From Hemileia vastatrix (taxonomy: Eukaryota; Basidiomycota; Pucciniomycetes; Pucciniales; Zaghouaniaceae), in NCBI GenBank assembly GCA_030280995.1, contig JASXTE010000012.1, forward strand, positions 11,544,501 to 11,608,500: 64,000 nucleotides of DNA, in the 5' to 3' direction. The notes under the pieces are model-generated. The model was not told the origin of the DNA, searched no databases, and worked only from the letters and a program-made list of their open reading frames with translations. The translations under genes were made by a program, and so were the position numbers. Shown here one piece after another: positions 4,940 to 48,940 of this stretch (position 1 is the first letter of the stretch; every line of letters begins with the position of its first letter).

Positions 4940-5375
4940 CATTTTAAGGTTTTGGGGGACTCATCCTCAGTTTTAAGTCTTGGGGGACTAACAGCCCTCA
5001 TTTTATAGTCTTGGGAGACTCAAAAACCCTCAGTTTATAGTCTTGGGTGACTTAAAACCTAAATCTTAAAGACAGAGCCAAAGATCAAACCATTAAAGAC
5101 CGAAGAAAATAAACTAACATTCTGGGGCAACTGTTCTTCAGAGCAGCCAGCTCATTAGTTACCCCCACACTTGCCTTAACAAAATTCAGAGACTCCCCCT
5201 TTGGATGCCCTCTGCCAAAATTACACCAACACCACATTATCAGTTTATAGTCCTGAAGAACTCAACCATCAAACCATCCTCATTTTATAGTCTTTGGGGA
5301 CTATACCATTTTTTAGTTTAAAGTCTTGATTGACTGACCACAGTGTTCAGTTTAAAGTCTTGACAGACTTTAAAA
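4940..5375 (-). repeat. array of family A hairpins in E3 tail
   Basis: Seven copies of the hairpin motif are read in sense (minus) at about 4968-4989, 5000-5021, 5031-5053, 5240-5262, 5283-5304, 5317-5338 and 5349-5371. Each has AGTC (or AGTT), a 6-nt loop usually ending CAA, GACT and NTAAAACTG/NTAAACTG. The loop sequence varies (CCCCAA, TCCCAA, ACCCAA, AATCAA, TGTCAA) while the stem is kept. The same motif is in E5 and E1. Confidence 0.75.
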
Positions 5376-5526
5376 CCACATTTTGCATAAAAGGACAGAG
5401 CCAATTCCATGCACAATACGCCACAGCCGCCCTACTGAACTTCCACTCTCTCTTAATCATCTACACATCACTAATAAAAATTTTTATCTTATCTCTTTTC
5501 TCTTCATTATTGTCCCATCACAGGAA

Positions 5527-7071
5527 ATGGCCAGATCCCCAAATTTTGACCCCTCAGACCTTCGTTGTTTCACTGCTCCCAAGGACTATGCTTGCAAAAA
5601 GTGTATCCACATGTGCAGACCTTGCACCTTCACTCTTTCAACTCCTGAGGCCAAACTTTAAAAAAGGGCCTGTGATTCTTGCAACTCCAAAAAGAAAAAA
5701 TGTGACATAGACCCCAATTATCTTATACCACCACTTTCACCGTCACACAAATACATCTCTAGATCTACTACTAGATCCCCAAAACTAGGTCCTGCTTCCT
5801 CTTCTCTATCTTCAGCTCCATCCAGAAGATCATGCCTCTCCGTCCCAAGAACTCTCTCAAAATGACCTGCTTTATCCTCCTAAGAAACAGCATTTTTATC
5901 AGAAATTTCAGCTAAAACAGCTTTAAAATCAGCTCCTAGACTGCTAGACCACGTCCAGGTGGCCACCCGCCTCACTAGGAAGCGGAAATCAGGCTCAAAA
6001 CCTCCAAATGCAGCCGGAAAACAGCCAAAATCCACTGGTAAACAACAACAACTCCACACAAAAACCTCCTAGTGCTGCCAGAGCCATGCGCACAAAAATT
6101 TCTTCATCAGAAAAGGCCAATAATACCAAAACTGCTAGAAGGCCTGCCAGAGGTCCTCAAGAAAACACCAAAGAACCAAAAATTGCTCCCAAACACAAAC
6201 CTACTTGTCAAACAAGAATTACCAACTACACCTCTCCTCTGGAAGCCAATTACTAATCTGATAGTTCCATTTCTTCCAGATCTTCATCTAGAAGATCTCA
6301 ATAAGCTTCCAGGTCACCTTCTTCTGGTCCTTCCTACAACCAACCTGGTACTCCTCCACCAGTATCCAACCCACCTGCACCAAGCAATAATATTAACAAC
6401 AACAGGAGCCCTGCTGCTCCAACCAGGCCACAGGAACTTCTTTCTTCTACTACATTTTATCAACACTATTTAGCGGATGATCATGAAAATCCATACCTCC
6501 ATCTGGTTGATCCTCCTTCAACATCCATTCAACATTCTTAAACAGTCCAGATTCCGGCCGCATACAAATTTGATGAGCTCCCAATCTATAAGTACTAAAT
6601 TTATAAATCCAATTTCATCAACAGAGACCATTACTGATCTAATTCTTCTGTTTAGTTGGAACCCTGCCTCCTGAAGCTGCAATTAGGATTGGCCAACCTC
6701 TAGAAACTACCTCAATGCTGGATTATGCCAACATGAAACACCACCTAAGCATGTTATGTTCAAAGATGCTTAAGGACTTTGCTCTTCATTGTCCATGGAA
6801 TGAATTTGAAAAGAATCTGAGGAAAAAGCTTCTTGACAACCACTGGAAGATGTCTAGAATAATAAAGCATACCTTCCATCACTCTATCCCCGCTTCTTCC
6901 ACTTCTTCCCAAAAATTACCTTCCAACACGGTTCCTGACCATTACAATCCATATACTCTTTTTAGCTGCCTAAACCACAAAGAACACAGTTCTTCCTCCA
7001 ATCATAACAAAAGGCAAAAATGCCAAAATAATACTGACCAACCGCCGGAGGCTTCTTCTTCCAGAAATTAA
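5527..7071 (+). pseudogene. second antisense Cys-cluster gene in E3 tail (decayed)
   Basis: From the ATG at 5527 the frame encodes C23-X2-C26-X6-C33, then 15 positions including one stop (TAA 5659-5661), then C49-X2-C52-X6-C59. The second half, ACDSCNSKKKKCD, looks very like half of a fungal Zn2Cys6 cluster. After a stop near 5864 coding character continues in other frames: a Ser/Asn/Pro-rich basic linker (6008-6540, two stops) and a C-terminal part (about 6664-7071) with ALHCPWNEFEKNLRKKLL and an Asn/Ser-rich end. A TATA-like GCATAAAAGG lies about 140 nt upstream of the ATG. I infer a DNA-binding-type accessory gene, now broken. Introns may account for some of the apparent frame changes. Confidence 0.5.
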
Positions 7072-8402
7072 AATAAAATAAGAAATTAATAGTTCACTAC
7101 CTAGAAAGACCAATAATAATTAGCAGATATATATATAAATTTTGTTTTATTTTTATTTTTATTCATTTTTTTTTATATTTATTATTATTATTTATTATTA
7201 TTATTTATTATTATTATTTTTTATATTTATATTTTTATTTAAACTACTAACATACTAAAAAAACTTGAAAATAATTAAACAAAATTATCCAAAAAATATA
7301 AGAGCTGAGAAATTAAAATGAAATAATTAATAATTACAAATGGTATCCCTTAGCCAATTTAGGAGCTGATCCCCTGATACCTTACCCACATCCAAGTGCA
7401 TCTTGATCTGGATACACCATTATAAATTTTTAAATGAATTGAGATAAAAATAAATTACAAAAAATAATACCATTAAAGATAAGATGAAATGAATATAAAT
7501 TAAAGTTAATAATAAAAAATGAGATAAGGATAAATGAGAAAATAGAATTGCCCAAACCATTGATGAGCCTTTCCCCACCAATTCTTGCCCACATCCAGGT
7601 GACCCTGATGTGGTGACACTGTATAATATTTCCCTTTTTATATCCCAATTACCCCCATGAAAAATTAAAAGAAAAAAAGAAAAAAATCTAAAACTTCTAT
7701 CTAAACAAAAAATACACAGAAAGAAAAAAGAAATAGTCTGGCTCCATAAAAAGTCCAATCCAAGGAAATAATCACTGTGTGGGATCCCTCCAATAAATAA
7801 AAATGATGGGAGACCACTAGTGATCCACCATCAATCCAAATAGACCAAAGAATCTTGTCCCAAGCCAGTAAGCTAGTTTAAAGTCATAGTGGACTTGAAA
7901 CATGAATAACAAAAACCAGAACTAGGATTCAACTAGGACAAACAAAAAATTGAAACAGACATTAAGGGGTAACTGTTCTAAAGAGAAGCCAGCTTATCAG
8001 TTACCCCCACACTTACCAAAATAAAATCTAGAAGCCCCCCCTGGGTACCTTCTAACAAAAACACAACATCCCACAAGGTGAACCAAAATCAATAAGCGTG
8101 AAGAGTCCAGCACTTGAAGACCAAAAGAAATTCCAGATCAAAGTGATAGAGGACTAAAACATGTGAAGAAAAACCAATACTAGGATTCAACCAAATTAAT
8201 CAAAGGGGTTGGAAACAGACAATCTGGGGTAAATGTTGATAGAGCATCAAGCCCATCATTTACCCCCACCCTTGCCAAAATAAATTTTAGAAGCCCCACC
8301 CATGGGTACCTTCTAACAAAAAAAGTTTCCAACAAAACAGATGCACAGCATCACCAAAATCCAAAATCAAAGAATGGTCCATAGTTTATCCTCATTGCAG
8401 AG
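7072..8402 (-). other. non-coding part of E3 tail next to integrase
   Basis: No credible gene is present. It contains AT-rich simple sequence (7125-7240), two or three copies of a block containing CCCACATCCA.GTG (about 7375-7405 and 7580-7605), and a PPT-like block (7771-7826) that in sense reads TCACTAGTGG .. ATTGGAGGGA .. CCACACAGTGA. Hairpin-like AGTC-CACTAT-GACT (about 7873-7895) and three near-identical stretches around TTACCCCCACACTTGCC (8000, 8260; compare 5160) are also present. Open frames at 7420-7758 start with non-ATG codons and are not supported. Confidence 0.6.
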
Positions 8403-9620
8403 TCAATATTCTTTACTTCTAGTGCCTATTGGGTAAAATCTCTTCACCTGATCAGCAGCCTCTCTCTTATTTAAGACTGCACCACTTAACTTCTCCAAAA
8501 AATAAGAACCTCCAGAAACCTGAGATCTGACTCTGTAAGGTCCACTCCATCTGTCAGCAAACATTTTTCCCCACTGACTCTCCAAACTTTTATTATATAC
8601 CAAAACCAAACAACCAGGTTTAAAGGGATTCCTGAGTCTATGAGCCAGCTTCTTTTTCCAGTATCTGACTGATTGATTTCTTATCTTCATCATTCTAGAG
8701 TATGCCTTCTCTTGACATTCCACTCTACATTCCAACTGTTGCATCCTGGCACAGAGCAAATCTTCTGTTGAGCACACATCATCCCAATCAATTCCAAGAT
8801 AAGATACTGCTTCCAAATCCACTTGTAGACCAGCTTTCTGACCAAACATTAGTTAATAAGGGGAATAGCCAGTTGTCCTTTTCACAGTGACCCTATCAGC
8901 AAATAACACCAAGGGTAAATAATGCCTTTATTTTTCAGCACTATCTCCACACATCTTCACCAAAGCATTCTTGATAACTTGATGGCCTCTTTCAACCATG
9001 CCTCCAGCTTCAGGATAATAAGGTGTAGCCACTCTGACTTTAGAACCAATACTTGCCACCGCTTCTTTAAATTCAGCTCCAAAATCTGGCCCACCATCAA
9101 CAGTCACCAACTTCATCAATTCACACCTAAACACCCATTACTTATTCAAAAATTCTGCCACATTTTTGACAGGCAAATTAATCAGAGGCACAGCCTAAAC
9201 CCAACCAGACAAATCATCCCTTTCAACAATCAAGTATTTATACCTGCCCTCTTTAATATGGACAGCATCCAGACTAGTTCTTCTAAACACAGTTGTTTCA
9301 CCATTAGCAAGGCCAACCTCTTTAGGTTTCAAGTGACTTTTTCTTTGACATTATTAACAAGATTGAATCCAACCCTTCAGATCCAACTTCATACCTAGCC
9401 ACCAAAATCTATCAGCTACTCTCCTATAAGTCTCCCCCAAGCCTCTATGACCAAGGTCTTCATGAAAAGACTTCAACACCAACTCTTGACCCTTCTTCTG
9501 AGTCACCACTACTTGAGTATTGGTATGCCTCCTCATCAAACTCCTTCCTGACACATAGAAGCCAGGACTCTTCTTCTTGATTGCCACCCAAGTATCATCA
9601 TCACAAATATCTGGCCTCTC
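8403..9620 (-). pseudogene. integrase of E3
   Basis: The minus strand encodes, in order, an HHCC zinc-binding domain (HEDLGHRGLGETYRRVADRF at about 9355-9480, with the second half damaged), a degenerate stretch (9135-9350) where the first catalytic Asp falls, VDGGPDFGAEF with the second Asp, and ATPYYPEAGGMVERGHQ with the catalytic Glu (8928-9134). The C-terminal domain is at 8403-8849 with ADRWSGPYRVRSQVSGGSY (GPY/F module), ending SKEY and TGA at 8403-8405. There is no chromodomain. Frameshifts near 9350, 9135 and 8900 make it inactive. It would insert element cDNA into chromosomes. Confidence 0.88.
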
Positions 9621-10515
9621 CAAGGTTAACAGATATTTGACCATAATAAAATAAAACCCAGTCTGACCCCAGGTCTCATCTTCAAAATCAAACAAAACAA
9701 CATCCAAGGGTACAACACTGTCATCAAGATCTCCAGTGTACACATGGGCCACACGACCAGCCCAACCAGGACACCAATCCCTAAATTTTGGTACATCCTT
9801 TTTCTTCCACTGAATCTTAAGAGAATCCAGTTCAACAATAAAAATGCCATTTTCCAATTTTGAGCCATCACAAGCAACAGCTCCATCTTCATCAACAAAG
9901 ACATCCTGATAAACAGAATCAAGATGAGAACCAGCCAGTTTAGCCTCTTGGGGGAGGAGAGAAAAATCATCCAGTTTAGCCTCATGGGGGAGGAGAGAAA
10001 AATCTTCAGCACCCGTTGTGCTGGCCCTAGCCACTGGGACATCTTCATCAAATTTATCAGTCTGAATCTTCATCCGTGGGTGGTCTCCTTGATAATCCAT
10101 CTGGAATTGTAAAGGTTTTCCCAGGTTTGTGTAACAGGTCAAAATAAAAATGCTGAAGAAATACCACCCACCTAGTCTTTGGAGTATTTGGAAGACTAGG
10201 TGTATTGATCATTTGAACCAGATACTTTGCATCCACCTGCAGCTTAAAACGCTTCCCCCACAAAACAGTTTGCAGTTTCTTCAAAATTTTTGCTACACCA
10301 CACAATTCCAACTTAGGTTGAGAATATCTAGGTTCAACCTCATTAAATACCACGGACTCATACCTTACTGACCTGACCCTCCAAGCTTTATCTTCCTGAG
10401 ACAACACAGCACCAGCAGTAATATAACTTGAGCCCACTTCCAGATAAATTTTTCCAGCTCCCACTCCATAATGCAACTTGTGAAGAATAATATATTCACC
10501 TTCCACCTTCTTCAA
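9621..10515 (-). pseudogene. RNase H and linker of E3 pol
   Basis: The RNase H domain (10057-10515) reads IYLEVGSSYITAGAVLSQ, where the usual catalytic Asp of VDSS is Gly, so the site is damaged. The Glu motif YSQPKLELCGVAKIL and Asp motif LQVDAKYLVQM are present. The linker to integrase (about 9640-10142) holds two adjacent LPHEAKL / LPQEAKL peptides, whose DNA (9935-9958, 9971-9993) forms the family A hairpin CCTC-CCCCAA/T-GAGG-CTAAACTGG. A conserved FDEDVP..RAS start and an ETWGQTGFYFIMVKYLLTLERP segment match E5. Confidence 0.88.
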
Positions 10516-11700
10516 CTTGTGAAAAGCCTCTTCACACTCTTCAGACCATTCCCATTCCCCATCTTTATGGTCAAACTCCTTAAAGTTGAAGCCAACAAAG
10601 AGAAATCTTTAAAAACAATTCTGACATACACACAAACCCCCTAAAATCCCCTGACTTCAGTATTATTTTTAGGCCTTGGCCATTACTGAATTTAATTAAC
10701 TTTTTTCTTTGCCATAATCCTTTCCTCCTTACATACAACATGACCCAGAACTTCTAGAGCAGGAACACAACAACAAAACCTTGACCCAGAAATTGTCAAA
10801 CCTGCCTCTTCAATCCTAAACAATACTTTCTCTTGATTAATTGCATATTCCCAAAAAAATCTCCTTAAACCTGGGTTCTCTCTCAGAACTGCATTTCCAT
10901 AATCAGTGGAAGGTTCTTTGATTCCAACATCATCAATAAAAATACAAGCATGAGTAGGAACCTCATCCTGTAAAATCCAAGGCATTTGTGCTTGATATAC
11001 CACTACTGAACTAGTTGCTCCTTGAGGCAACCTAGTGAGCTGAAATCTTCCCAGAGGAGTCTCAAACGTTGTGAGTAGCCATTAATTGGTGTTAAGTTCC
11101 ATTTCATCATAACCACCCATAATATCTCCCAACCACAACACACCCTTCCAGAAAAATCTTCCACAAAGTCCTCTGCACTTGGAGGCATCCCTGCATCCTT
11201 GATAGTGACTTTATTCAAGGCTCTATAATCATTCACCACCCTCAGTTTCCCATTCTTCTTTTTTACACAGAAATCCAGACTTGAATAACTAGATGTTGAT
11301 TGTTTGTATAAGCCAGTCCTGAATCTTTCCCTAACAACCTCCACAAAATCATCCCTAATAGCAGCTGGAATTAGAATAGGTTTGATTTGCCAAGGTTTGT
11401 GGAAAACCACAGGAATCAAGTTAGGTTCCCCAGAAGAGTTTTTCAACACGCCCCTTTCCTCTTCAACAAATGTCACCTCTTTTCCCTCAGCACAATAACG
11501 TGAAACAACAACTTCTTTTCCTCATTAGAAAACCACCCATCAGGACCAAAATTAACAACTTTCAACCTTTCCACAGTCACCCTAGAAGTTTCCACAAAAT
11601 CAGGAGGATTCTTTACCAGATGAGTACAGTACAGATCTCTTGACAAAGGAGTTCTCCTTAAAGGAGGATTTAAACCTACAGGCCTAATCTTCTGCACTTA
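10516..11700 (-). pseudogene. reverse transcriptase of E3
   Basis: It begins with the LNPPLRRTPLSRD and VNFGPDGWFSNEEKKLL region (11473-11697). The fingers/palm follow with KKNGKLRVVNDYRALNKVTIKDAG (11003-11476), then after a frameshift PQGATSSVVVYQAQMPWILQDE and the catalytic FIDD (10692-11030). The segment 10516-10690 is a degenerate thumb. The domain order and motifs match the pol of E5 (41600-42700). At least three frame changes kill it. The product would copy element RNA into DNA in cytoplasmic particles. Confidence 0.88.
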
Positions 11701-12535
11701 ATTCTTGTACTTTGCTGCTCCACCTTCAACTTGAGGGATCTTCAGGACATCTTCACCACCAGACCTGGAACAAAAACAAGGGTTTCCCAATTGCTCACAT
11801 ATGTGGCCAAAGTAATGTTTTTGAAATGTGTAGAAGAAACCCTAGCGGTGCACAATTGGTAAGACTTACTTTTAGACCCCAATACCACTACTCTAAAACT
11901 TTTCTGCAATTCCACATCTTCATCCTCAATTCCATCTTCTAAATCTTCAAATCTTGATTCATCTTCTGAATCATATATTCTAAAATTGTGAAGTTTATCC
12001 TCATGCTGGAGGCCCAAAAATTGACGTTGATGATCTTTACAAAAATGATTTTTTTCTTCTTTCTTGATTGTCTTCTGATTTTTTTCTTGATTTTCTTCAG
12101 TTATCTTGAAATTTTTATTTTATTTTCTTGAGTTTTCTTCTATCCTACCAAAAAAACCAGGGTTTCCCCAATGCTCACAGATGTGGCCAAGGTATTGTTT
12201 TTGAAATGTGTAGAAGAAACTCTAGCAGTGCACTATTGGGAGGACTTACTTTTAGACCTCAATCTCACCACTCCACAGCTTTTCTGCATATCTTTCACCA
12301 AAGATATATATCCAATCTTCTTTTTTGAACTTGAATTAAAAATAATTTAAAATTTTGAGAGAGAACAAATACTTGATAAAAATTTTGAAGAATACTTTTA
12401 GAGAAGAGAAACATTAAAAAAGAGAAAGTTAAAAATCCACTTGGTATATCTCCAAGGGAGCTGACCTACTACAACCTGGGATTTCCTCATCTTGGGGAGA
12501 GGTTGTAGCACTTGGGTGATCAGCCCTCATCACTC
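11701..12535 (-). pseudogene. pol N-terminal spacer of E3 with internal duplication
   Basis: This is the region between the frameshift site and the RT, poorly conserved in sequence. Its start in sense (SPQDEEIPGCSRSAPLEIYQVDF, about 12425-12520) matches E5 and E1. A direct duplication of about 140 bp is visible (11772-11910 and 12150-12290, both starting GGGTTTCCC and ending CTTTTCTGCA on the plus strand). One family A hairpin is at 11999-12012. A 9-bp perfect stem lies at 12469-12477 with 12500-12508, corresponding to the conserved stem downstream of the frameshift site in E5. Confidence 0.75.
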
Positions 12536-34960: not shown

Positions 34961-35830
34961 CTCTTGAAAGTGATCCTAGAAGTTTCAGAAAATTTGGGCA
35001 TTTTAGTGAATAAAGAAAAGTCATATGGATCTCTTGATAGATTTGTTCTTCTCAAAGGTTGATTTAATTCAGCTAAAAAAGGTTTGTTTATTGGTCTAAT
35101 TTTATTTTCTACCCTTATATATTTTTCCATGCCAACTTTCAATTTTACTTGAGATCCTTGATCCATTATAGTTTTTTCATTATATAATTTGTCATAATAA
35201 TTTTCTTCAGCTTCAGATCCAGTATCAGAAATAGAGTAAAATGAAAAATAGTTTTTATTTTCAATATTTTCATTTTTATCACTACTATCCCCTTTTCTTT
35301 GTCTAATTTATCATATAATTTTCCAACACCTTCTTACCTTTCATCTTTCATCACAAAATCACCAGTAAATAAAGTTGGCAGTTTAACCTCCTTCTGGAGG
35401 AAAGAAATAGAATCATTACAAATATTATTTTTTTGTTGATTATGATGTGATAATTACATTTTATCCTCATGTTGGAGGCAATAAAATATGCCACCACTAA
35501 TATCACCATAATTAACTAAATTCCCTTTCCAATTTCTATCCAACATAATATATCCCATCTTTCCCTTTGAACAATTTTTAAATTTTATAGAATAGATTGA
35601 TAAAGATAATAAACATATAGAAAAATCCAACACATAATGACATTCCAATGAAATATCTACAAAAAATAATTAAGAATCCACTTGAATTATCTCCAAGTGA
35701 GCTGACCTATTGCAATCTAGGATCTCTTCTTGAGGAGAGATTGCAACATTAGAGCAATAAGCCCTTACTACTACAAAAAATGAGGGTAATCATACTTATC
35801 TTTAATAATTTCACCCGGAGCTGACCTTTT
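34961..35830 (-). pseudogene. pol N-terminal spacer of E1
   Basis: Contains the FLAELNQPLRRTNLSRDPY block (about 35040) and, further upstream in sense, dispersed hairpins at about 35377-35400 and 35457-35482. At its start the gag frame reads CAT TTT TTG TAG, keeping the heptamer T TTT TTG (plus 35774-35780). A perfect 9-bp stem follows (35710-35718 with 35738-35746). Confidence 0.75.
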
Positions 35831-36895: not shown

Positions 36896-38007
36896 TGTGG
36901 TAGCCTAAAGTTTAGTACGGCACCTAAATATGTAAATGGAGTTATCATGGCATGCAAGATTGGTGTTATTATTTTTTATAAAAGGGTTTTATTTAATTTA
37001 TTGGAGTTTAAAATATGAAGAAATTGGTCACGAGCGAATGCCTACACAAATACAATTTATTTCACGGAGAAAACTTATTTTTACGGTCTGAAAATTTATA
37101 AGTATTAAGTCGAGTCACTCAAGAACCTTGGGAAATTTTCCCAGAATTTTTACTATTTTTCTTAAATTTTTAAATGAATTTTAAAGTTTTATAGAAATAT
37201 TTACGTTTTCAAAAATTACTTAAATTTGATGAATTTTCACGGGGTAATTAGAGCTGCGCAGACTACGAAAATTAGTTTGGTATGTAAAGGGGAAGTAGCT
37301 CTATTATGTGTAATTTTTCTAGATTTTTTATTATGGTTTTAAGGTTCTAAATTGAGTCCGGAAGTCCGGACGGACTCCGTTTCGACTCCGTACGGACTCC
37401 GTACGGGCTCCGGATTGACTCTGGAAGAGCTCTGGAGGGGAAAACTTAGGCACGTGACTAGGAATACTTAAGCGCTTCTCAAACTCGAAATTGAGGGGGG
37501 GGACACATCATACAGCTTAATCTTTAACCACCACAGTCTCATTTTTTATTACTCAACAAATTAAAATAACTTGTAATACCCTTATAACATTATTATTTTT
37601 TTTACATAACATTTTAGAAATACAATTCAACAGTTTAAATAACACTTCATACAGGGTATCTTTAGAAAGGTCTTCGTCGCTGGGACTTGATTATTGCTGT
37701 CTCATAAAAATTCAAATTATTATAAAAACATAAAAGTCAATCTTTTCAGATCTTTCACTGGTACACCTTAATTGTTGTTATCAGTATTTCTTTCCTCAAC
37801 AGCCACAATCATTTAATCTCAATAAGCGTTAATTATTTTAGAGTTTCATTATTTTTATCAATCAGATCTAAGTAGATTGGTTAGCTTAGTGATTTAGAAC
37901 ACCTACTTTGTTATTTTTATTGGAAGGACGGGGTTTTCAGCTAAATCCACATATCTCCTCCGGATTCTGCTTACAGCAAGGCGACTGTAAGAGTTTACCT
38001 TACCATA
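36896..38007 (+). repeat. 5' LTR of E5
   Basis: 1112 bp. Contains a CTCCG/TACGG-rich palindromic tract (about 37356-37440) with tandem 11-bp GTACGGACTCC units. The 3' LTR has one unit more. Confidence 0.95.
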
Positions 38008-38009
38008 GT

Positions 38010-38027
38010 TGGCGCCCAACGTGGGGT
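38010..38027 (+). promoter_or_regulatory. primer-binding site of E5 (tRNA-Lys type)
   Basis: TGGCGCCCAACGTGGGG begins 2 nt after the LTR. This is the sequence known as complementary to the 3' end of tRNA-Lys(1,2)-type tRNAs. Decayed versions are at the same place in E1 (about 50497-50514) and E3. Confidence 0.8.
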
Positions 38028-38183
38028 TCGATTTCTCTAGCTTTCTTTAAAGACTTACTTGGATCAAGAAAGTTCTTAGCCTGCAAGAGGCTTATTCTCT
38101 GAAACTCTAATCGGATTTTTGTTATTTGCCTGCAAGAGGCTTGTTATTTTATCGATTGTTAACGCTTTTCATTACTTATTGGG

Positions 38184-40793
38184 ATGTCTTCTTCTGCTGT
38201 TGCTTCTGGATCTTCTAACCCTCTTACTCCCTCAGTTAGAATTGTTTCTTGGGATGGCCCAAAGTTTGATGGGGAGGAGGTTAAATGGTTCATTAGCAGG
38301 TATGAAGCTGCTGCTGCTGTTGATGGTGCTTCCCATGTGGATATGGTGAAGCAAGTTAGATTTTTTATTGCCGATAGGGAGGTGGAAAAAGAGGTTATTG
38401 CTATGCAGGCATTCAAGGACAAGGATTGGGTTAAGCTTTCTAAAGCTATGGTTGATAGATGGGGTGTTAGGTTTACTATGATGGACCTCAATAAAATTGT
38501 TGGAGACTGGCAAGCAAAAGGTGGAGTTTCTTCTATGGCTGACTTCAAAAAGCTCTGTGTTCAGTTTGATGAAGTGGTGGAATATCTCATACTGGTGGAC
38601 GAGTTAGTGCATGAGAACCAAGCAAAAGATTTGTTTTGGTCAGCATGCAGCAGGGATATTCGAATGGACGTCTTGAAGGATCTTTCAAGAAAAGATTTGA
38701 TGAAGGAACTGCCTAATGGTGAGCAGAAACTGCCGGCTCTGGAGGTTATCAAGGACAACATTCAAGCCCATCTAAAGTTATTGGCGTTGGACAAATATCA
38801 AGAGTCTTGCACTCAATATGTTAGCAAGGTTAGCGAAGTTTTGGCCGAAAACAACGATATTATGGTCAAAGCCCAGGAGGCCAAGAAGGCTCAAATGGGA
38901 TTACCGGCTGCTAAAGTTGAGGGCAATGTAGACAATAAGATGGTCAATCACTTGGCCGATTTAACGAAACAATTAAAAATATTTGTTCAAGAAACCCAGA
39001 AGGCCAATAAGGCCCCAATCGCTTCTTCGTCGACGTCGACTTCTTATCAGTCTAGAGGTTATGAACGTCGAAATTATAATGGCAATAACAACGGTAACCG
39101 CTTCCCAGGCAATGGGAGAAATGGTGGGAATGGTGGTAGTAATTATAGAGGTGGCTATGATGAGCCAAAGGTGTGCTCCTATTGTAATAGGAGGGGTCAC
39201 AGAGCAACAGTTTGTTTTGCTCTTGATAAGGATATGGATGCTGGGCGAGTTTTATTTGACGGTAAAGTTTATAAATTTCCTGATGGTTCGTTCATCAAGC
39301 CCAGTGATGGACAGTCTCCTTCTGATTTGGTCAGAAGAAGTTTAACGGCTGAAAGGAGAGCCAGATTTGAAGAGGTGACGGATGAAGATGTTAATGCCAA
39401 GAGTGGCAAAAATGGTAATGGTAATGGTGGAAAAGCTGACAAGGGCAAGGAGAAAGAGGTCAGTAAAGCCACATTTTCTACTTCTTTTGGTGGTTTAGAG
39501 CTGGCGACGGTTTCCCAGGTGGAGGGTAGCTGTATGGCTGGCGAATACGATGTTAATGCTGCTAGAAGAGCAGCTGCTACTAAGGCGAAAAGTAGCATTC
39601 AGAGCCAATTGAGGGCTAATCCTGGCAAGGCCAATAACAAAGTGAACCCTTACTCTAAGGACAAGATTTCTAGTGCTCAAACTGCCGCCAACAAATTGAA
39701 CCCTTACTCTAAGGACGAATTATATAAAATGCAGAAGGGGATTGCTGATATGGGGCCCCCTAGTTATGGCAAGTTTGATTTAAATGGTGAGCCTATGCCA
39801 GAGGATGATTCGGATTCTGAGGAGGACGTACCGTTGGCGTCTCTACCCAGACCAAGTTTTAGCGGTCCCATCCCAATGGAGGGTGTAAGAAGGACTAGCG
39901 ATGGATCAGGATTAGTGCAAGAAGCTGGTGATGGAGTTAGGGTTATAGAAAGTGAAGATGTTATAATGGGGGGTGAAGATGGCTCGGTTGGACCTCAAGA
40001 GGTACCCAGGGCCAAGGTTGTTAAATCAAAGGTCCAGTATGAGCGGCCAGTAGTTTCTGGTCAAGCTAATGCGATGGACGCAGTTTTGAATAGGGTGAAT
40101 CAACTTCAGATTCCCTTATCTTTGGGGGAGTTATTTACGATTAGTCCGGCGCTTGCTGAAAAGCAAAAGAAGCATTTGACGAGGCGTCGGGTTTCCACTG
40201 GAGAGGTGGAATATATTTGTGAAAATGTTGAAAAGTTTGGGGAAGATGTAGATACACATTTTTCCGCTCCCCTGGGTTACCTGGTGGTAACTCTTAATGG
40301 TAAAGAAGTAAAGGCCTTGGTCGATTCAGGGTCTCAAATTAATTTAATTTCATTGGAGCAAGCGACGAGTATAGGCTTGCCAATTAAAAGTGGAACTGGG
40401 GGAAACCTCAGAGGTATTGGTGGGCATGCAACAGAGCTGATGGGTACAGCTGAGCATGTCAGGTTAGGCATTGGTGGATCTGTTGGTAAGGTTCACTTTT
40501 ATGTGGCCAGAGGAGCAGTCAAAACTGTTCTTGGTGGTCCTTTTTTGATGGATTTTGAGGCCAGGATAGGGTATCAAGCTGGCATGGGGATTAGTTTGGA
40601 GATCACTGGTGAAGATATGCGGAGGTTACATATGCGGTTAGCACCTCCTGGAGATGAAGGTTGGGAAACACGGCCAGGGATTACTACTTTGTGCCAGTGT
40701 TGTGTTTGCACCAAGAAGCGGCATATTAAACGGACGGCTTCTGGTGAATTATGTTTGTTGGAAAGGGATGAATGCCCTCATTTTTTGGGGTAG
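38184..40793 (+). CDS. Gag-protease polyprotein of E5
   Basis: ATG at 38184, 869 residues, TAG at 40791. Residues 1-220 form an Ala/Asp-rich capsid-like helical domain (KFDGEEVKWFISRYEAAAA, DRWGVRFTMMDLNKIVGDWQ). A Gly/Asn-rich basic region precedes the zinc knuckle CSYCNRRGHRATVC (from C331, C-X2-C-X4-H-X4-C). A long low-complexity linker follows with two NKxNPYSKD repeats and SDSEEDVPLASLPRP. Retropepsin is at about 690-800 with D714 in VDSGSQINLIS. A final Cys-rich tail CQCCVCTKKRHIKR is conserved in E1. The heptamer for -1 frameshifting lies in the last codons. Fusing protease to Gag rather than Pol is notable. The product builds the particle and matures the polyproteins. Confidence 0.95.
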   Translation: MSSSAVASGSSNPLTPSVRIVSWDGPKFDGEEVKWFISRYEAAAAVDGASHVDMVKQVRFFIADREVEKEVIAMQAFKDKDWVKLSKAMVDRWGVRFTMMDLNKIVGDWQAKGGVSSMADFKKLCVQFDEVVEYLILVDELVHENQAKDLFWSACSRDIRMDVLKDLSRKDLMKELPNGEQKLPALEVIKDNIQAHLKLLALDKYQESCTQYVSKVSEVLAENNDIMVKAQEAKKAQMGLPAAKVEGNVDNKMVNHLADLTKQLKIFVQETQKANKAPIASSSTSTSYQSRGYERRNYNGNNNGNRFPGNGRNGGNGGSNYRGGYDEPKVCSYCNRRGHRATVCFALDKDMDAGRVLFDGKVYKFPDGSFIKPSDGQSPSDLVRRSLTAERRARFEEVTDEDVNAKSGKNGNGNGGKADKGKEKEVSKATFSTSFGGLELATVSQVEGSCMAGEYDVNAARRAAATKAKSSIQSQLRANPGKANNKVNPYSKDKISSAQTAANKLNPYSKDELYKMQKGIADMGPPSYGKFDLNGEPMPEDDSDSEEDVPLASLPRPSFSGPIPMEGVRRTSDGSGLVQEAGDGVRVIESEDVIMGGEDGSVGPQEVPRAKVVKSKVQYERPVVSGQANAMDAVLNRVNQLQIPLSLGELFTISPALAEKQKKHLTRRRVSTGEVEYICENVEKFGEDVDTHFSAPLGYLVVTLNGKEVKALVDSGSQINLISLEQATSIGLPIKSGTGGNLRGIGGHATELMGTAEHVRLGIGGSVGKVHFYVARGAVKTVLGGPFLMDFEARIGYQAGMGISLEITGEDMRRLHMRLAPPGDEGWETRPGITTLCQCCVCTKKRHIKRTASGELCLLERDECPHFLG

Positions 40794-40853
40794 CAGGGGC
40801 TGATCGCTCAAATGTTGTAATCTCTCCTCAGGATGAGATCCCGGATTGCAATA
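40781..40853 (+). promoter_or_regulatory. -1 frameshift signal of family A with conserved stem
   Basis: In the gag frame CAT TTT TTG GGG TAG holds T TTT TTG (40781-40787). The -1 frame reads on into pol. About 25 nt downstream 40813-40823 pairs with 40843-40853 (11 bp including three wobbles). The stem is perfect over 9 bp in E1 (35710-35718/35738-35746) and E3 (12469-12477/12500-12508), and E1 against E3 shows three compensated pair changes. Confidence 0.75.
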
Positions 40854-43800
40854 GGTCAGCTCACTTGGAGATAATTCAAGTGGATTCTCAATTATTTTCT
40901 GTTAATATTACTTTGGAGTGCAAATACGTTTTGGACTTTTCTATATGTTTATTGGATTTACCCTGTTTTTCTATTAAATTTAAAAATGGTAAAAAAGGCA
41001 AAATGGGCCAAATTAGGTTGGATAAAAATTGGAAGGGTATGTTTTATGACCTCCAGCAAGAGGGTAAACTGCAATTAACTCGTCAAAACTCAATAAAAAA
41101 TCTCAGTATAAGTAAAACACAAAAAAATAATTTTTGTGAAAATTCATTTCCGGACCTCCAGCAAGAGGTTAAACTGCAATTATCTCCTTCTATTTTGGAC
41201 CTCCAGCAAGAGGGTAAACTGCAAAAATTACATCAAAATCCGATTAAAAATCTTGGTATAATTAAAACACAACAAAATAATTTTTGTGAAAATTCAATTC
41301 CGGTCCTCCAGCAAGAGGTTAAACTTCCGACTTTCTTTACAGGTGATTTACTGTTGGATAAGGGAAGAAAAGGTGTTGGAAAATCTGTTTATAAATTAGA
41401 CGAGGGAAAGGAGAAAAGGGTAAAATTTAAAAATGAAATAAAATATTTTTCTAATTTTTCTTATTCTGATTCTGGCGATGAAGAAGATTCATTTGATGAA
41501 AGTTTTAATGGCGATACAAAAGAAAATGTTTTACCTCAAGTTAATTTAGATGTGGACGCAGCCAAATATAAGAAAGTAGCAAATAAAGTTCGACCTATTA
41601 ATGAACCGCTACCTGCTGAATTAAATCCACCTTTGAGAAGACCAAGGTTATCAAGAGATCCTTATGAAAGTCCCTTGGTAAAGAATCCGCCTGAATTTTC
41701 TGAGACGTCAAGAATCACTTTTGAGAGACTGGGTGTTGTTAATTTTGGACCTGATGGTTGGTTGTCTGGAGAAGAGAAGAAGTTGTTGTTGGATGTGATG
41801 GTCAAGCGAGAGAAGGCCATTGCTTTTGTAGAAGAGGAGAGGGGTGTGTTGAAGCATTCCTATGGGGAGCCTTACAAGATTCCTGTGGTATGTCATGAAC
41901 CGTGGCAGCAGAAACCAATTCCTATTCCGGCTGCATTGAAAGAAGCTTATATCGAAGTTGTCAGAGAAAGGATACGCACTGGACTGTATGAGCAATCAAC
42001 GTCAAGTTATTCTAGTCCTGTATTTTGTATCAAGAAACCAAATGGCAAGCTTAGAGTTGTTCATGATCTTAGGGAATTAAATAGGGTTACAATAAAGGAT
42101 GCTGGGATACCACCTAGTGCTGAGGAGTTTGTTGAAGCATTTGCAGGGAGAGTGTGTTATGGATTGGGAGATATTATGGGTGGATATGATGAGAGAGAGT
42201 TACATCCGGACTCAAGGCCTCTCACTACATTCGATACACCACTTGGACGTTTACAGTTAACAAGATTACCTCAAGGAGCAACAAATTCGGTTGCAGTTTA
42301 TCAAGCTCAGATGGCTTGGATCCTTCAAGATGAAATTCCACAATATGCTGGAATCTTTATAGATGATGGAGGAATTAAGGGACCAACAACCGACTATGAT
42401 AACCAGGTGTTGGAAGAGAATCCCGGGATACGCAAATTCATTTGGGAGTTTGCAATTACTTTAGAAAGAATCTTGTTTCGAATTGAAGAGGCTGGATTAA
42501 CTATTTCAGGTTCAAAATTTTCATGTTGTGTGCCAGCCTTAGAAACATTAGGCCATGTGGTATGTAGAGAGGGTAGGATTATGTCTAAGAAGAAAGTTAA
42601 CAAAATTCAGTCCTGGCCAAGACCCAAGAATACGACCGAAGTTAGAGGGTTTTTAGGCGTTTGTGTATATGTTAGAATGTTTATCAAGGACTTTTCTTCA
42701 TTGGCAGCTCCATTGAGACGGTTAACGAGAAAGGATGCAGACTGGGAGTGGGATGAAGAGTGTGAGAAGGCGTTTGTGAAGTTGAAGGAGGTTGTGGGGA
42801 AGGATTTAGTCCTGCACAAGTTAGATTATGGAAAAGATGCTGGTAGAATTTATTTAGCAGTTGATTCAAGTCAGGTTGCAGCTGGGGCGGTTTTGTCTCA
42901 GATGGATAAAGCTGGTTACATCAGGCCAGTTAGGTATGAATCTGTAGTATTTACTGAGGTCGAATCAAGATATTCTCAACCGAAATTGGAATTATGTGGT
43001 GTGGCGAAAATACTGAAGAAACTTCAGCATATTTTGTGAAGGCAACATTTTGAGTTGCAAGTGGATGCGAAATCGTTAATCCAGATGATTAATTCCCCAA
43101 GTTTACAGAATGCACCCATGATGAGATGGGTAGCTTTTATTCAACATTTTTCATTTGATTTAGTTCATAAGCCTGGCAAGACTTTTACTATGCCAGATGG
43201 TTTATCAAGGAGACCACCCACTGAAGAAGATTCAGACTCAGAAGAGTTCGATGAAGATATACCTATTATCAAAGCCAGCACTAAAGGAGCTGAAGACTTT
43301 CCATACCTCCCCCATGAGGTTAAACTGGCAGGACTAATGTGTTTAGATTATGGTGTTGATGACCTCCACCAAGAGGATAAACTGGAAAATAGTTTTTATG
43401 TTAAAAAAGGTGTTGAAAAATGTGTAGATAAATTCGGCAGAGAGGAGGTAGGAGAAGATGTGGTGTATGTAGAGGAAGATGGATTGGTAGTGTGGGATAG
43501 TAGTAAATTAAGGAATGGTGTATATGTTGGAGAATTAGAGAACTTAAATAAAAAGGTGGATAAAGAGAAAGAGGTATTTTCAAATACGGTTTTCGAAGGA
43601 TCCAAAGGTTCAGAAGAAAAACGTCGACATAGCTCGATTAAAGATTTATTTAGGGGTCAACGATTATTGGCTCATTCATGTGCAGGTGATATTGGTGATA
43701 GAGAAGTCCCTATTGATGTTATATTAATCGATTTTCAAGATGAAGTCTGGGGTCAGACTGGTTTTTATTTTTTGTTAGTCAAATATTTGTTGACTTTAGA

Positions 43801-45043
43801 GAGGCCAGAAGATTGTGAAGACGATGAATGGGTGGCTATCAAGAGGAAGTCATCTACGTTTTACCTATCTGGTTGACGTTTAATGAGGAGGAGGTATCCA
43901 AATCCTCAAGTAGTTATAACTCAACAGAAGGGGCAAGAATTAGTTTTGAAATCACTGCATGAAGATCTCGGGCATAGAGGCGTTGGAGAAACATTTAGAA
44001 GAATTTCTGATCGATTTTGGTGGCCTGGCATGAAGATGGCTGTTAAACAGTGGGTTCAGTCATGCGAAGAATGTCAAAGACGAAGTTATTTAAGGCCAAA
44101 AGAACCTGGACGCGCGACCGGTGAATATACGCTCTTTGGGAGAGTTAGTTTAGATGCCGTTCATATAAAAGAGGGACGGTATAAATATTTAATTGTGGCC
44201 AGAGATGATTTATCTGGTTGGGTAGAGGCAGCGCCTCTTATTAATTTAACTGCCAAAAATGTGGCAGAATTTTTTTTGAATAATTGGGTATATAGGTATG
44301 GGGTGATGAAGTTGGTAACGGTAGATGGAGGTCCTGAATTTGGGACAGAGTTTAAAGAGGCCGTATTGAAAGTTGGATCAAAGGTTAGGGTAGCAACCCC
44401 ATATTATCCTGAAGCTGAAGGCATGGTTGAAAGAGGGCATCAAGTTATCAAGGATGCTTTAGTTAAAATGTGTGGGACAAGTGCCGAAAAATGGAGGCAC
44501 TATTTACCTTTAGTTTTATTTGCTGATCGAATCACTGCCAAAAGGACGACCGGATTTTCACCTTATGAACTTGTTTTTGGACAGAAAGAAGTTTTACCGG
44601 TTGATTTAGAAGCTGAATCATATCTTGGAGTTGACTGGGACACGGTCAAAACTACTGAAGAATTATTGTGTGCAAGAATGATGCAGCTAGAAAAGAAAGA
44701 AGAATATTTAGAAAAGGCATATTCGCGGATGATGAAGATCCGAAATCAATCAGTCAAATATTGGGATGAGCGGTTGGCACATCGATTAAGGAAACCTTTG
44801 AACCCAGGTGATATGGTCCTGGTGTATAATAGGAGTTTGGAAAGTCAGTGGGGAAAAATGTTTGCAGATAGGTGGAATGGACCGTATAAAATCAAGGAGC
44901 AAGTTTCCGGCGGTTCATATGTGTTAGAAGAGTTGGATGGAGTAGTATTGAAGAAGAGGGTAGCTGCCGATCAAGTGAAACGGTTCTATCCTAGAGGCAC
45001 CAGGAGTGCCAAAGTCTTCCTCCGCAATGAGGATAAACTATGA
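40788..45043 (+). pseudogene. pol of E5: RT-RNase H-integrase, two stops
   Basis: One frame from the frameshift site to TGA 45041, interrupted only by TGA at 43037-43039 (Trp in E3) and TGA at 43874-43876 (probably CGA). Spacer with a 50-residue tandem duplication (41048-41347). RT: NGKLRVVHDLRELN, LPQGATNSVAVYQAQ, FIDDGG (42355-42372). RNase H: VDSSQVAAGAVLSQ, YSQPKLELCGVAKIL, LQVDAKSLIQM. Integrase: HEDLGHRGVG..CEECQ zinc domain, SLDAVHI, VDGGPEFGTEF and EAEGMVERGHQ (D, D, E), then ADRWNGPYKI (GPY/F). No chromodomain. It ends in LRNEDKL, encoded by a hairpin copy. If the stops are read through or absent in other copies, the family is potentially active. Confidence 0.93.
41048..41347 (+). 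repeat. 150-bp in-frame tandem duplication with four hairpins
   Basis: Two units (41048-41197, 41198-41347) each encode DLQQEGKLQ..NFCENS..LQQEVKL and each carry two CCTC-CAGCAA-GAGG-NTAAACT hairpins (starting 41050, 41155, 41200, 41305). Confidence 0.85.
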
Positions 45044-45180
45044 AACTTCTTAAATTTTACGGATTCCTCCGCAATGAGGATAAACTATGATATCTACGAA
45101 ATTTTATGGATCCTCCGCAATGAGGATAAACTATGAAACTTCTTAAATTTTATGGATCCTCCGCAACGAGGATAAACTAT
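45016..45180 (+). repeat. four tandem hairpin repeats after integrase
   Basis: Period 46-47 bp. Each unit has CCTC-CGCAAT(C)-GAGG-ATAAACTAT (stems from 45019, 45066, 45112, 45158). The first overlaps the pol stop region. Confidence 0.9.
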
Positions 45181-46116
45181 CTTCTTATTTTTATCAAAAA
45201 TACTTTACTATCGTTACACTGAATATGGGCGAAGAAACTATGATGAAACTTAACGAAATTCAAGAAGACCTTCTATGAAATTTTCAAAAACTTAAAATAC
45301 TTAAAATATGGGTGAAGATAGTGTTGGAAAAATTTTAAAATTTATTGGAAGAAGTGTTCACAGGGGAACCTTCTTAATTTAATATTGGCAAGTGTGGGGG
45401 TAATTGATGGGCTGGCTGCTCTATACACAATTACCCCATAATGTTCGTTTCCAAAATTTTCCCTGTTTCTAGTTGAATCCTGGCTTTGTCTTTTAATTAT
45501 AGGAAGTCCACTAAGACTATAAACTGGAACGAATCAAGAGACACCGCTCTCAACGCCGGATTCAAGATTTTCTTATTTTGTTTTTGATTTTTTTATGTTA
45601 GATTGTGATTTCTTTTCTTTAATATATATTATGAATTATTGTAAAGGTGATGCTCACTGGTGGTCTCTAATCATTTTTATAAATTGGAGGGAGCCCACCC
45701 AGTGATCATCATTATAAAAATTATCTTCTAAAAACTTTCATTTATTTTCTTTTCTTTTCAATTTCTTAAAATTGTGTAACCACATCAAGTTGCACTTGGA
45801 TGTGGGTATGATGTCGAGGGTACGGCTCATCAAATGGCCGGGGGGCATCTTTTAAAATTTTATTTTAAAATTTTTTTTTTTAGTACTTTTTTTAATCTTT
45901 TTTTCACATTCATTTATCTTTCTTTAAAATTAAATTTTAACTTTTATTTCAAAACTATCTTTTCTAAAATCTTTTATTTTAAATTTAAAAAAAAAAATAA
46001 ATAAATAAAATAAAATAAAATAAAATTAAATTAAAAAAAAAAAATTAAATAAAATAAAAAAAAAAATAAATAAATAAATAAAAATAAAATAAAAATAAAA
46101 TAAATAAATAAAAAAA

Positions 46117-46149
<33 letters not shown>

Positions 46150-46312
46150 AAAATTAAAATTAAAATTAAAATTTATTAATTAAATCAAAATCATTATTAT
46201 ATTTCTTAGTTTTATTTTTTTTTTAGTTTTCATTCTTTTTAGTGTTATTCATTTAGTTTAGACAGGAAACAGGGTCTAGGAGAACTCAATACCAATGGGA
46301 TTTTACTTCAAG
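45181..46312 (+). other. first part of the 3' tail of E5
   Basis: No gene. It contains a hairpin AGTC-CACTAA-GACT-ATAAACTGG (45505-45527), a stem TCACTGGTGG..CCACCCAGTGA (45654-45705) enclosing ATTGGAGGGAG, a block CTTGGATGTGGG (about 45796), and an A/T-only low-complexity tract (45985-46190). Confidence 0.7.
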
Positions 46313-47150
46313 ACATCTGTTAGTCCTCCAAGACTTTAAACTGGCTACTGTTCAACACGATCTTTAAGGTTTTATACGAATTTTGGAGCTGTTAGTCCTC
46401 CAAGACTTTAAACTGGCTACTTTTCAAGACTTTCCTTAAGGTTTTATACAAATTTTGGATCTGTTAGTCCTCCAAGACTTTAAACTGGCTACTTTTCAAG
46501 ACTTTCCTTAAGGTTTTATACGTATTTTGGATCTGTTAGTCCTCCAAGACTTTAAACTGGCTACTGTTCAAAACTTTCCTTAAGGTTTATACAAATTTTG
46601 GAGCTGTTAGTCCTCCAAGACTTTAAACTGGCTAATTTTCGAGACTATCGTTAAAATTTTTTATTGGATTTGTTAGGTCCACCAAGACCTTAAACTGGAC
46701 TATTATCAAGTGTTGGGTCCACCATGACCTTAAACTGGATTTCTTATCGATTAAATGTTTGGTCCACCATGACTTTAAACTGGTAGTTCATTCATTGTTT
46801 AGTCCACTATGACTTTAAACTGGAAAATTAATATCTGCAGGATAATTCAACATTCATTGGACCACTATGGCCTTATACTGGATTACTTGTCGATCAAATG
46901 TTTGGTCCACTATGACATTAAACTGGATTATCAAATTTATTCAATCTTTGGTCAAGCCTAGGCCTTACTTAGGAATATATTAAGATATTTATGCACTTAA
47001 ACGATCTTTGGTCCACCAAGACCATAAACTGGCAATCGATTATATGTTTGGTCCACCAAGACTTTAAACTGGAATGTCAATCTTGTTTGGATAACTCAAT
47101 TCAATCTTTTAATATATCACTGTCCACTATGACTCTAAACTGGTTATTCA
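46313..47150 (+). repeat. main hairpin array in the 3' tail of E5
   Basis: Five 71-72-bp tandem units (stems from 46322, 46394, 46466, 46538, 46609) with AGTC-CTCCAA-GACT-TTAAACTGG. About nine shorter-spaced variants follow with GGTC-CACCAA-GACC, GGTC-CACCAT-GACC or AGTC-CACTAT-GACT, each followed by NTAAACTGG. The stem changes in a compensated way. Confidence 0.88.
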
Positions 47151-47804: not shown

Positions 47805-47817
47805 ATTGGAGGGAGGA
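47805..47817 (+). promoter_or_regulatory. polypurine tract of E5
   Basis: ATTGGAGGGAGGA immediately before the 3' LTR. The same core recurs internally at 45683-45693. Confidence 0.8.
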
Positions 47818-48940
47818 TGTGGTAGCCTAAAGTTTAGTACGGCACCTAAATATGTAAATGGAGTTATCATGGCATGCAAGATTGGTGTTATTATTTTTTA
47901 TAAAAGGGTTTTATTTAATTTATTGGAGTTTAAAATATGAAGAAATTGGTCACGAGCGAATGCCTACACAAATACAATTTATTTCACGGAGAAAACTTAT
48001 TTTTACGGTCTGAAAATTTATAAGTATTAAGTCGAGTCACTCAAGAACCTTGGGAAATTTTCCCAGAATTTTTACTATTTTTCTTAAATTTTTAAATGAA
48101 TTTTAAAGTTTTATAGAAATATTTACGTTTTCAAAAATTACTTAACTTTGATGAATTTTCACGGGGTAATTAGAGCTGCGCAGACTACGAAAATTAGTTT
48201 GGTATGTAAAGGGGAAGTAGCTCTATTATGTGTAATTTTTCTAGATTTTTTATTATGGTTTTAAGGTTCTAAATTGAGTCCGGAAGTCCGGACGGACTCC
48301 GTTTCGACTCCGTACGGACTCCGTACGGACTCCGTACGGGCTCCGGATTGACTCTGGAAGAGCTCTGGAGGGGAAAACTTAGGCACGTGACTAGGAATAC
48401 TTAAGCGCTTCTCAAACTCGAAATTGAGGGGGGGGACACATCATACAGCTTAATCTTTAACCACCACAGTCTCATTTTTTATTACTCAACAAATTAAAAT
48501 AACTTGTAATACCCTTATAACATTATTATTTTTTTTACATAACATTTTAGAAATACAATTCAACAGTTTAAATAACACTTCATACAGGGTATCTTTAGAA
48601 AGGTCTTCGTTGCTGGGACTTGATTATTGCTGTCTCATAAAAATTCAAATTATTATAAAAACATAAAAGTCAATCTTTTCAGATCTTTCACTGGTACACC
48701 TTAATTTTTGTTATCAGTATTTCTTTCCTCAACAGCCACAATCATTTAATCTCAATAAGCGTTAATTATTTTAGAGTTTCATTATTTTTATCAATCAGAT
48801 CTAAGTAGATTGGTTAGCTTAGTGATTTAGAACACCTACTTTGTTATTTTTATTGGAAGGACGGGGTTTTCAGCTAAATCCACATATCTCCTCCGGATTC
48901 TGCTTACAGCAAGGCGACTGTAAGAGTTTACCTTACCATA
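47818..48940 (+). repeat. 3' LTR of E5
   Basis: 1123 bp, 11 bp longer than the 5' LTR because of one extra GTACGGACTCC unit (about 48309-48345). About three substitutions besides. Confidence 0.95.

Follow-up and report, generated by a model that had tools for sequence, protein, structure and literature searches.

A repeated 23-nt unit of a Ty3/gypsy retrotransposon in the rust fungus Hemileia vastatrix, predicted to fold as a compact RNA pseudoknot

Compact pseudoknots, tandem pseudoknots in 3' untranslated regions and dispersed packaging signals are each already known. Among the compact ones, polerovirus pseudoknots have a short loop 1, a stem 2 of 3 bp and an A-rich last loop. Here we describe a 23-nucleotide (nt) unit with these traits that is repeated along E5, a Ty3/gypsy long terminal repeat (LTR) retrotransposon at 36896-48940 (plus strand) of a 64,000-nt stretch of Hemileia vastatrix DNA, hereafter the window (contig JASXTE010000012.1, positions 11,544,501 to 11,608,500, of assembly GCA_030280995.1, which holds 747.6 Mb in 791 contigs). 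An earlier note on this DNA had reported a small hairpin repeated about 25 times in the coding and non-coding RNA of E5 and had said that its author knew of no described equivalent. We count 25 copies. We also found no equivalent of the whole arrangement in the literature, though the three known classes named above come close to parts of it. Rickettsia palindromic elements, in which a small palindrome is spread through coding and non-coding DNA, differ in that the E5 unit has been seen in just one retrotransposon family, always in sense orientation, and appears to be pseudoknotted.

The unit is like the frameshift pseudoknots of beet western yellows, potato leafroll and sugarcane yellow leaf viruses in being a very small H-type fold (PMC5009743), but unlike those of the poleroviruses, the coding copies of E5 have no slippery heptamer 5-9 nt upstream, and there are many copies per RNA, most of them non-coding. 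The upstream pseudoknot domain of tobamoviruses similarly lines up several pseudoknots in a row within a 3' untranslated region (PMC4683447); tobacco mosaic virus (TMV) has three of them before its tRNA-like structure, whereas E5 has 15 copies between integrase and LTR in addition to those in pol. Single-stranded RNA viruses carry dispersed packaging signals, many copies of a small site across the genomic RNA (PMC6281560, PMC5431903, PMC7793301). Their binding by coat protein is known, whereas the E5 units are putative binding sites, are near-identical and were multiplied at least in part by duplication. Finally, Ty1 has a 5' pseudoknot, and pseudoknots are predicted in the GAG and POL of Ty3, again in the genomic RNA of LTR retrotransposons (PMC4974528, PMC11381356); unlike E5, these are described with one or two pseudoknots per genome and no repetition. 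For LTR retrotransposons and for rust fungi, no work on such a repeated pseudoknot was found, in a literature coverage that was mostly non-subscription, so that absence proves little; rust transposons are treated in PMC12210899.

The unit consists of a 4-bp stem (S1) enclosing a 6-nt loop, followed by N, TAAAC and 3 nt. S1 pairs bases 1-4 with 11-14. The last three flank bases (21-23) are complementary to loop bases 3-5 (bases 7-9 of the unit) in 20 of the 25 E5 copies and would form a second stem (S2). The rest is L1 of 2 nt, the first nearly always C, J of 1 nt and L3, which is N-TAAAC. On this pairing, the unit is predicted to be a compact H-type pseudoknot of the sense RNA at most sites. 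In three 23-nt examples, the folding energy of S1 by itself is just -1.9 to -4.7 kcal/mol. Rfam gave no family match in 38000-47820 (four matches with E up to 5, all far below the gathering score); Rfam models do not contain pseudoknots.

With positions counted from the first stem base, four plus-strand copies lie in the linker between protease and reverse transcriptase (PR-RT linker; 41050, 41155, 41200 and 41305, spanning 41050..41327), with S1 CCTC/GAGG and S2 GCA/TGC in three of them and a broken GCA/TTC at 41305. The RNase H-integrase linker has two (43306 and 43363, 43306..43385), with CCTC/GAGG and S2 CCA/TGG. Four more stand at the integrase end and just beyond it (45019, 45066, 45112 and 45158, 45019..45180), where S1 is paired and S2 is an unpaired CAA/TAT. 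The remaining 15 are further 3', at 45505-47143, between integrase and 3' LTR, which are about 2.8 kb apart. They comprise a unit at 45505..45527 with AGTC/GACT and S2 CTA/TGG (including a U.G wobble), five in tandem repeats of 72/71 nt (46322, 46394, 46466, 46538 and 46609, 46322..46631) with S2 CCA/TGG, and nine others (46676, 46716, 46761, 46801, 46859, 46904, 47010, 47050 and 47121, 46676..47143) with S2 paired in all nine. Thus 18 of the 25 copies, including three of the four integrase-end copies, begin beyond the integrase stop at 45043, and seven are coding. In E5, the unit scans found no copy within gag, within the LTRs or in the 5' region. The examples named in the earlier note were present within 0-4 bases (46676 for 46675, 46801 for 46800, 47010 for about 47006).

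Its statement that the stem changes but stays paired also holds. Among CCTC/GAGG, AGTC/GACT and GGTC/GACC, S1 is entirely Watson-Crick in 20/25 copies and paired in 22/25 if G.U is included (G.U at 46761 and 47050; one pair broken at 46859, 46904 and 47121). The note's hairpin with a nearly constant 3' flank stands in part: the unit does look like a sense-strand RNA element whose pairing is kept, and TAAAC is near-invariant. However, the last three bases vary with loop bases 3-5, and across all elements S2 takes the forms CCA/TGG, TCA/TGA, GCA/TGC, ACA/TGT and CTA/TGG. At most sites the flank supplies the other strand of S2, and we reject a plain hairpin with an unvarying flank there on the loop-flank covariation. 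Because both sides mostly change together, the pseudoknot has apparently been kept by selection, and we regard an RNA pseudoknot under selection at most sites as highly probable.

Covariation was judged by shuffles, slid structures and genome contingency counts, with a partial correction for shared descent. In 39 representatives, obtained by grouping the copies by their flanks with misses included, mutual information is highest (0-based numbering) for (6,22), then (12,13), (1,12) and (7,21); the first and last are loop-flank pairs, (1,12) is a stem pair and (12,13) are neighbours. S2 is complete in 24 of the 39, against 12.3 after permutation and 16.1 after permutation within stem class, and none of 20,000 permutations reached 24. 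Among the 31 distinct rows of these 39, two of which look like chance matches (L018 TGTC... and L020 ACTC...), 85.7% of cells are paired against 68.9% in shuffles and at most 35.5% in slid structures. Their outer S2 pair is CG in 11, UA in six, GC in four, AU in one and other or unpaired in nine. Loop-flank pairing and compensatory change in both stems, as expected of an H-type pseudoknot, were thus found except at the integrase-end sites.

The clearest single compensatory events are two. At the homologous PR-RT-linker site, E5 has GCA/TGC and the element E4 has ACA/TGT. In the L018 array, one unit is TCA/TGA and the other members are CCA/TGG; the flank cluster of this array holds seven distinct TCA/TGA contexts against 28 of CCA/TGG. 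In addition, conservation falls off at both edges of the 23 nt: single flank positions outside the unit reach at most 1.24 bits in the class with CTC stems and 0.96 bits in the class with GTC stems, as expected for related flanks. Within the unit, the TC, GA and TAAAC anchors are invariant because the search demanded them; of the free positions (1-based), 5, 9, 21 and, in the GTC class, 7 are strongly conserved, and the unpaired bases 6, 10 and 15 are more variable.

The same associations are seen in the whole genome, where counts are of exact patterns, are lower bounds and are not independent events because the copies share descent; the control, the pattern read backwards, gave 0 every time. 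In the GTC-stem class, CCA/TGG occurs at least 25,942 times and TCA/TGA at least 10,819 times, and the mismatched TCA/TGG at least 281 times. In the CTC-stem class, GCA/TGC occurs at least 18,537 times, against at least 79 for the mismatched GCA/TGG and at least 57 for CCA/TGC. The outer S1 pair is A-U in at least 24,076 places, G.U in at least 4,993 and A.C in at least 164. Matched and mismatched patterns, which are mutually exclusive, sum to at least 67,779 copies genome-wide.

Several observations weigh against a pseudoknot, or limit how far it can be generalized. The integrase-end family (CAA/TAT, AAA/TAC, GAA/TAC) is without S2, and part of it (ACTC...GAGG) is also without the outer S1 pair, a pair that is broken at several fixed sites. 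S2 is paired in just 23 of 57 distinct CTC-stem rows, against 139 of 145 GTC-stem rows without C at the second loop base (12 of the 229 rows belong to neither stem class, and S2 is paired in six of those 12). At L060, the PR-RT-linker homologue at 52 has an unpaired ACA/TGC, with GCA/TGC beside it at 118. The mismatched CCA/TGA of the GTC-stem class reaches at least 12,064 because of a family with a C-rich loop, which supplies 11,484; at least 580 have a base other than C at the second loop position. In this family, the two bases after the S2' triplet are GG in 13 of 15 distinct rows, and both outer loop bases can pair with GG in 12 of the 15, against 0 of 145 other GTC-stem rows. S2 may be shifted or extended in this family, though this was noticed post hoc. 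Among the 4,993 G.U places, the first 100 belong almost entirely to two sequence types; since two fixed element sites may supply most G.U places, the G.U excess is weaker than the ratio implies. Moreover, two of the five measures in the test on 31 representatives, both-side-changed pairs and further pair types, are not above shuffles (499/500 and 359/500 shuffles reach them), and independent double changes are few because the sites are paralogues.

The integrase-end sites, with S1 but no S2, could also be read to mean that the S1 hairpin alone matters and that a protein recognizes the flank as a sequence motif, and the near-invariance of TAAAC even with one mismatch allowed fits such a motif. 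We regard this as quite improbable, since the last three flank bases track loop bases 3-5, with the outer S2 pair taking all four Watson-Crick forms, and do so genome-wide as well.

Orientation bears on whether the unit acts as RNA or as DNA. By a strict pattern, 36 of 36 copies in the window are sense to their own element and none is antisense, so the antisense abundance that the earlier note had named as a way to refute the motif was not seen. The copies it reported in E3 and E1 are real, on the minus strand of the window along those elements: the strict pattern finds E1 units at 56, 118 and 1106 (56..1128) and E3-type units at 5030, 5313, 5347, 7873, 8381, 9935, 9971 and 11990 (5030..12012). 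E4 has two units, at 35378..35478, of which the one at 35456-35478 is the ACA/TGT site mentioned above. E1, E3 and E4 and all their units are on the minus strand. Beyond the window, a grid of 20 stretches, each 10 kb long, was scanned, and six hold units by the strict pattern; five of the six have E5-like coding sequence on the same strand, and the sixth, L010, corresponds to the 3' portion of an E3-type element. Neighbouring units up to 600 bases apart lie on one strand in 283 of 283 pairs, overlapping loci being counted repeatedly. Clustered sites within a retrotransposon would also suit a DNA-level site for a host DNA-binding protein, of which the Su(Hw) site array in Drosophila gypsy is an analogue. 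Such a site would not be expected to show complementary double changes or a preference for G.U over A.C, and none of the 283 neighbour pairs is on opposite strands. We therefore disfavour a DNA binding site, for its strand constancy and G.U/A.C asymmetry, and would give it very little credence.

The second check, abundance in unrelated sequence, came out the same way. No unit was found by the strict pattern in the E2-type elements, the other gypsy family of the window. With an 11-anchor definition allowing at most one mismatch, the sample gave 387 matches in 228 distinct contexts, overlapping loci being counted repeatedly, and the reversed sequence gave seven; one anchored pattern had 24,076 exact matches genome-wide against 0 when read backwards. 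Prokaryote contigs (257 Gb) had 12 single matches to one pattern and viral contigs four, which we take as chance. These comparisons support, within the sample, confinement of the unit to one element family.

The coding copies allow a distinction between RNA and protein. They encode a peptide of the form L-x-x-E-x-K-L (LQQExKL in the PR-RT linker, LPHEVKL and LHQEDKL in the RNase H-integrase linker), in seven copies and one frame. The earlier note had placed these in linkers of pol, which is correct for six; the seventh is at the integrase C-terminus. A protein repeat, in which the peptide itself is selected, for example as protease sites, and the 3' copies are relics, would account for the common frame of 7/7 coding copies and their position in linkers and at the integrase end. 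However, codons are kept too: at the RNase H-integrase linker site, the only one compared, six elements have identical codons for identical amino acids in 67 of 71 cases within the motif against 269 of 417 upstream, pairwise cases that are non-independent. In addition, 18 of the 25 copies follow the integrase stop, and their spacings of 71-72 and 40-45 nt hold no frame. The protein repeat is rejected on this synonymous conservation and seems to us about as improbable as the DNA site. Among 160 fetched proteins, LxxExKL occurs in just P0001, P0140, P0150 and P0159. P0001, labelled Xanthomonas sp. A2111, has 99% identity to the E5 integrase, and for that reason its record is probably contamination with DNA of this fungus.

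Besides E5, all seven homologues of the RNase H linker found by protein similarity in the window and grid carry the unit site, two of them decayed. In E3, a separate 36-nt duplication affects the unit at the RNase H-integrase linker, and therefore the multiplication is recurrent. Local tandem duplications of 72, 45, 105, 46 and 36 nt support the view that the unit was multiplied along the element at least partly by short local duplications. The many lengths of these duplications would equally fit a functionless mutational micro-repeat, spread by hairpin-promoted template switching during reverse transcription, whose young copies merely seem conserved. Against it, the flanks are more diverged than the 23 nt, S2 is compensated and synonymous conservation extends across diverged elements, and we find it improbable.

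The fold class is that of compact frameshift pseudoknots, and each unit might then be a stimulator of -1 frameshifting. An AAATTTT heptamer lies 6-9 nt upstream of 5/25 copies against 10% of random positions in 45100-47800; these copies, at 45066, 45112, 45158, 46466 and 46609, are all after the integrase stop, three of them are without S2, and their flanks are tandem duplicates. Searching for a slippery heptamer X_XXY_YYZ 5-9 nt upstream gave 0 of 7 coding copies and 5 of 18 later copies. Because none of the coding copies has a heptamer, frameshifting as the common role is ruled out, and it would be the least credible of all the alternatives weighed here.

A second conserved hairpin is support for a structured RNA region that does not depend on the search for units. 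It lies at 45397..45437 (plus strand), about 100 nt upstream of unit 45505, and has a 10-bp stem GGGGTAATTG/CAATTACCCC and an inner stem. In E5 it folds at -19.6 kcal/mol with a z of -1.9, and 7 of 200 shuffles fold equally well. Of 23 distinct matches to its core, those at L013, L024 and L060 (at 2384) were omitted as non-homologous, being without the GGGG stem. In the 20 copies kept, one pair is T-A in ten, C-G in eight, A-T in one and mismatched in one, and another is G-C in 14, T-A in one and mismatched in five. When the spacing was examined from the hairpin alone, at the 19 sites kept with GGGG required, the best unit-like sequence was 98-105 nt from the core in 18; in 16 it matched 12 or more of the 14 anchor bases, and in 14 its S2 was paired. 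The hairpin also occurs on the minus strand near 871, 5156, 7998 and 8257, and in L060 near 3904, 4164 and 7038. E3-type elements repeat the module of hairpin and unit up to three times.

What would such an RNA do? Many copies of a shared fold are found in the sense genomic RNA, and a sense-only, multivalent distribution over coding and non-coding parts is the pattern expected of dispersed packaging signals. We suggest that 20-25 pseudoknots per genomic RNA could together serve a single RNA-binding partner as a multivalent handle, that this partner is most likely the Gag of the element itself, and that the units would mark the full-length RNA for packaging and assembly into virus-like particles. 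Coding units would survive only where the inserted peptides are tolerated, in the linkers between pol domains, and units would accumulate in the untranslated 3' region, where no ribosome unfolds them. In Ty1, a major Gag binding site lies in a pseudoknot, Ty3 RNA localisation and packaging depend on UTR (untranslated region) or POL sequences, and for both elements the sequences needed for selection of genomic RNA are reported to be imprecisely defined (PMC4974528, PMC11381356). The E5 Gag has a CCHC pattern, C-x2-C-x4-H-x4-C, recognized by eye, and Pfam gave no zinc-knuckle match in it.

Two points count against a packaging role. A role of the Ty1 RNA pseudoknot in encapsidation was reportedly not demonstrable (PMC4974528). 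The packaging functions of Ty1, Ty3 and HIV-1 have been placed in the 5' region (PMC11381356), and E5, unlike these, has no units there. Taken as a whole, a selected and multiplied pseudoknot that Gag reads as a dispersed packaging signal is our best explanation, held at somewhat short of even chances. That Gag reads the unit is, as a separate matter, a tentative proposal, and the fullest form, in which the element multiplied the pseudoknot along its RNA, in coding linkers and 3' region alike, as a multivalent RNA address and Gag uses the whole set for selecting and assembling full-length RNA, is possible but doubtful.

The position of most units also admits other roles. With 15 of the 25 between integrase and 3' LTR, the pseudoknots might act in translation or RNA stability in a tobamovirus-like way, the pol copies being by-products or pause sites; the three consecutive pseudoknots in the upstream pseudoknot domain of TMV interact with eEF1A (PMC4683447). 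The six units inside pol linkers, and the synonymous conservation at the one site tested, speak against this, and we think it unlikely. Slightly less likely still is an element of nuclear export or retention, in which repeated sites for a host protein let unspliced RNA exit the nucleus. Sense-only multivalent sites mostly between integrase and 3' LTR, accompanied by a second conserved hairpin module, would suit such an element and its hypothetical host partner.

The carrier itself is a recognizable Ty3/gypsy element with the order PR-RT-RNaseH-IN between its LTRs, and is inserted within a minus-strand relative. On the plus strand, the 5' LTR (36896..38007) is 98.75% identical to 47818-48940, the 3' LTR being 47818..48940. 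It is adjoined by a sequence at 38009..38028 that we take to be the tRNA primer binding site. Open reading frames (ORFs) follow for gag and protease (38184..40793, Pfam aspartyl protease), for the PR-RT linker, reverse transcriptase and start of RNase H (40772..43039, Pfam RVT_1 and RT_RNaseH, in the -1 frame relative to gag), for the linker between this ORF and that of integrase (43055-43876) and for integrase (43883..45043, Pfam Integrase_H2C2 and rve, the latter just below the cut-off with 31.8 against 32.6 bits). The named eukaryotic matches of the integrase are rust-fungus proteins (Austropuccinia psidii, Puccinia and Cronartium), and many unnamed metagenome proteins match as well.

Some further features of these elements were observed. 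The gag and pol frames of E5 overlap in the -1 frame, and a U_UUU_UUG-like slippery stretch stands directly before the gag stop (40779-40793, CAT TTT TTG GGG TAG in the gag frame); folding downstream of this overlap was no better than shuffles. The pol frame is broken by in-frame stops at 43037-43039, between RT/RNase H and linker, and 43874-43876, between linker and integrase. The LTR contains 11-bp tandem repeats, TCCGTACGGAC-like, at 48287-48363. Two copies of CCTGCAAGAGG (38080-38090 and 38129-38139), a 4-5-bp hairpin resembling a shortened unit, follow the primer binding site in the 5' leader; the hairpin is also present at 959 and 1009 of L018. L060 has antisense ORFs of 163-234 amino acids on the minus strand (5432-6136, 6220-6711 and 7507-8043) in the 3' region of an E3-type element.

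Finally, the E5 family offers many natural variants of a minimal unit, in which pairing has already been swapped, and its unit copies number tens of thousands. If Gag does read the unit, a 23-nt oligonucleotide would suffice to test the packaging question. Should the reader instead be a host protein, a genome rich in transposable elements would have a control point in that protein. If the proposed role is true, H. vastatrix would provide an LTR retrotransposon whose dispersed packaging signals are made of pseudoknots, with tens of thousands of them in the genome.

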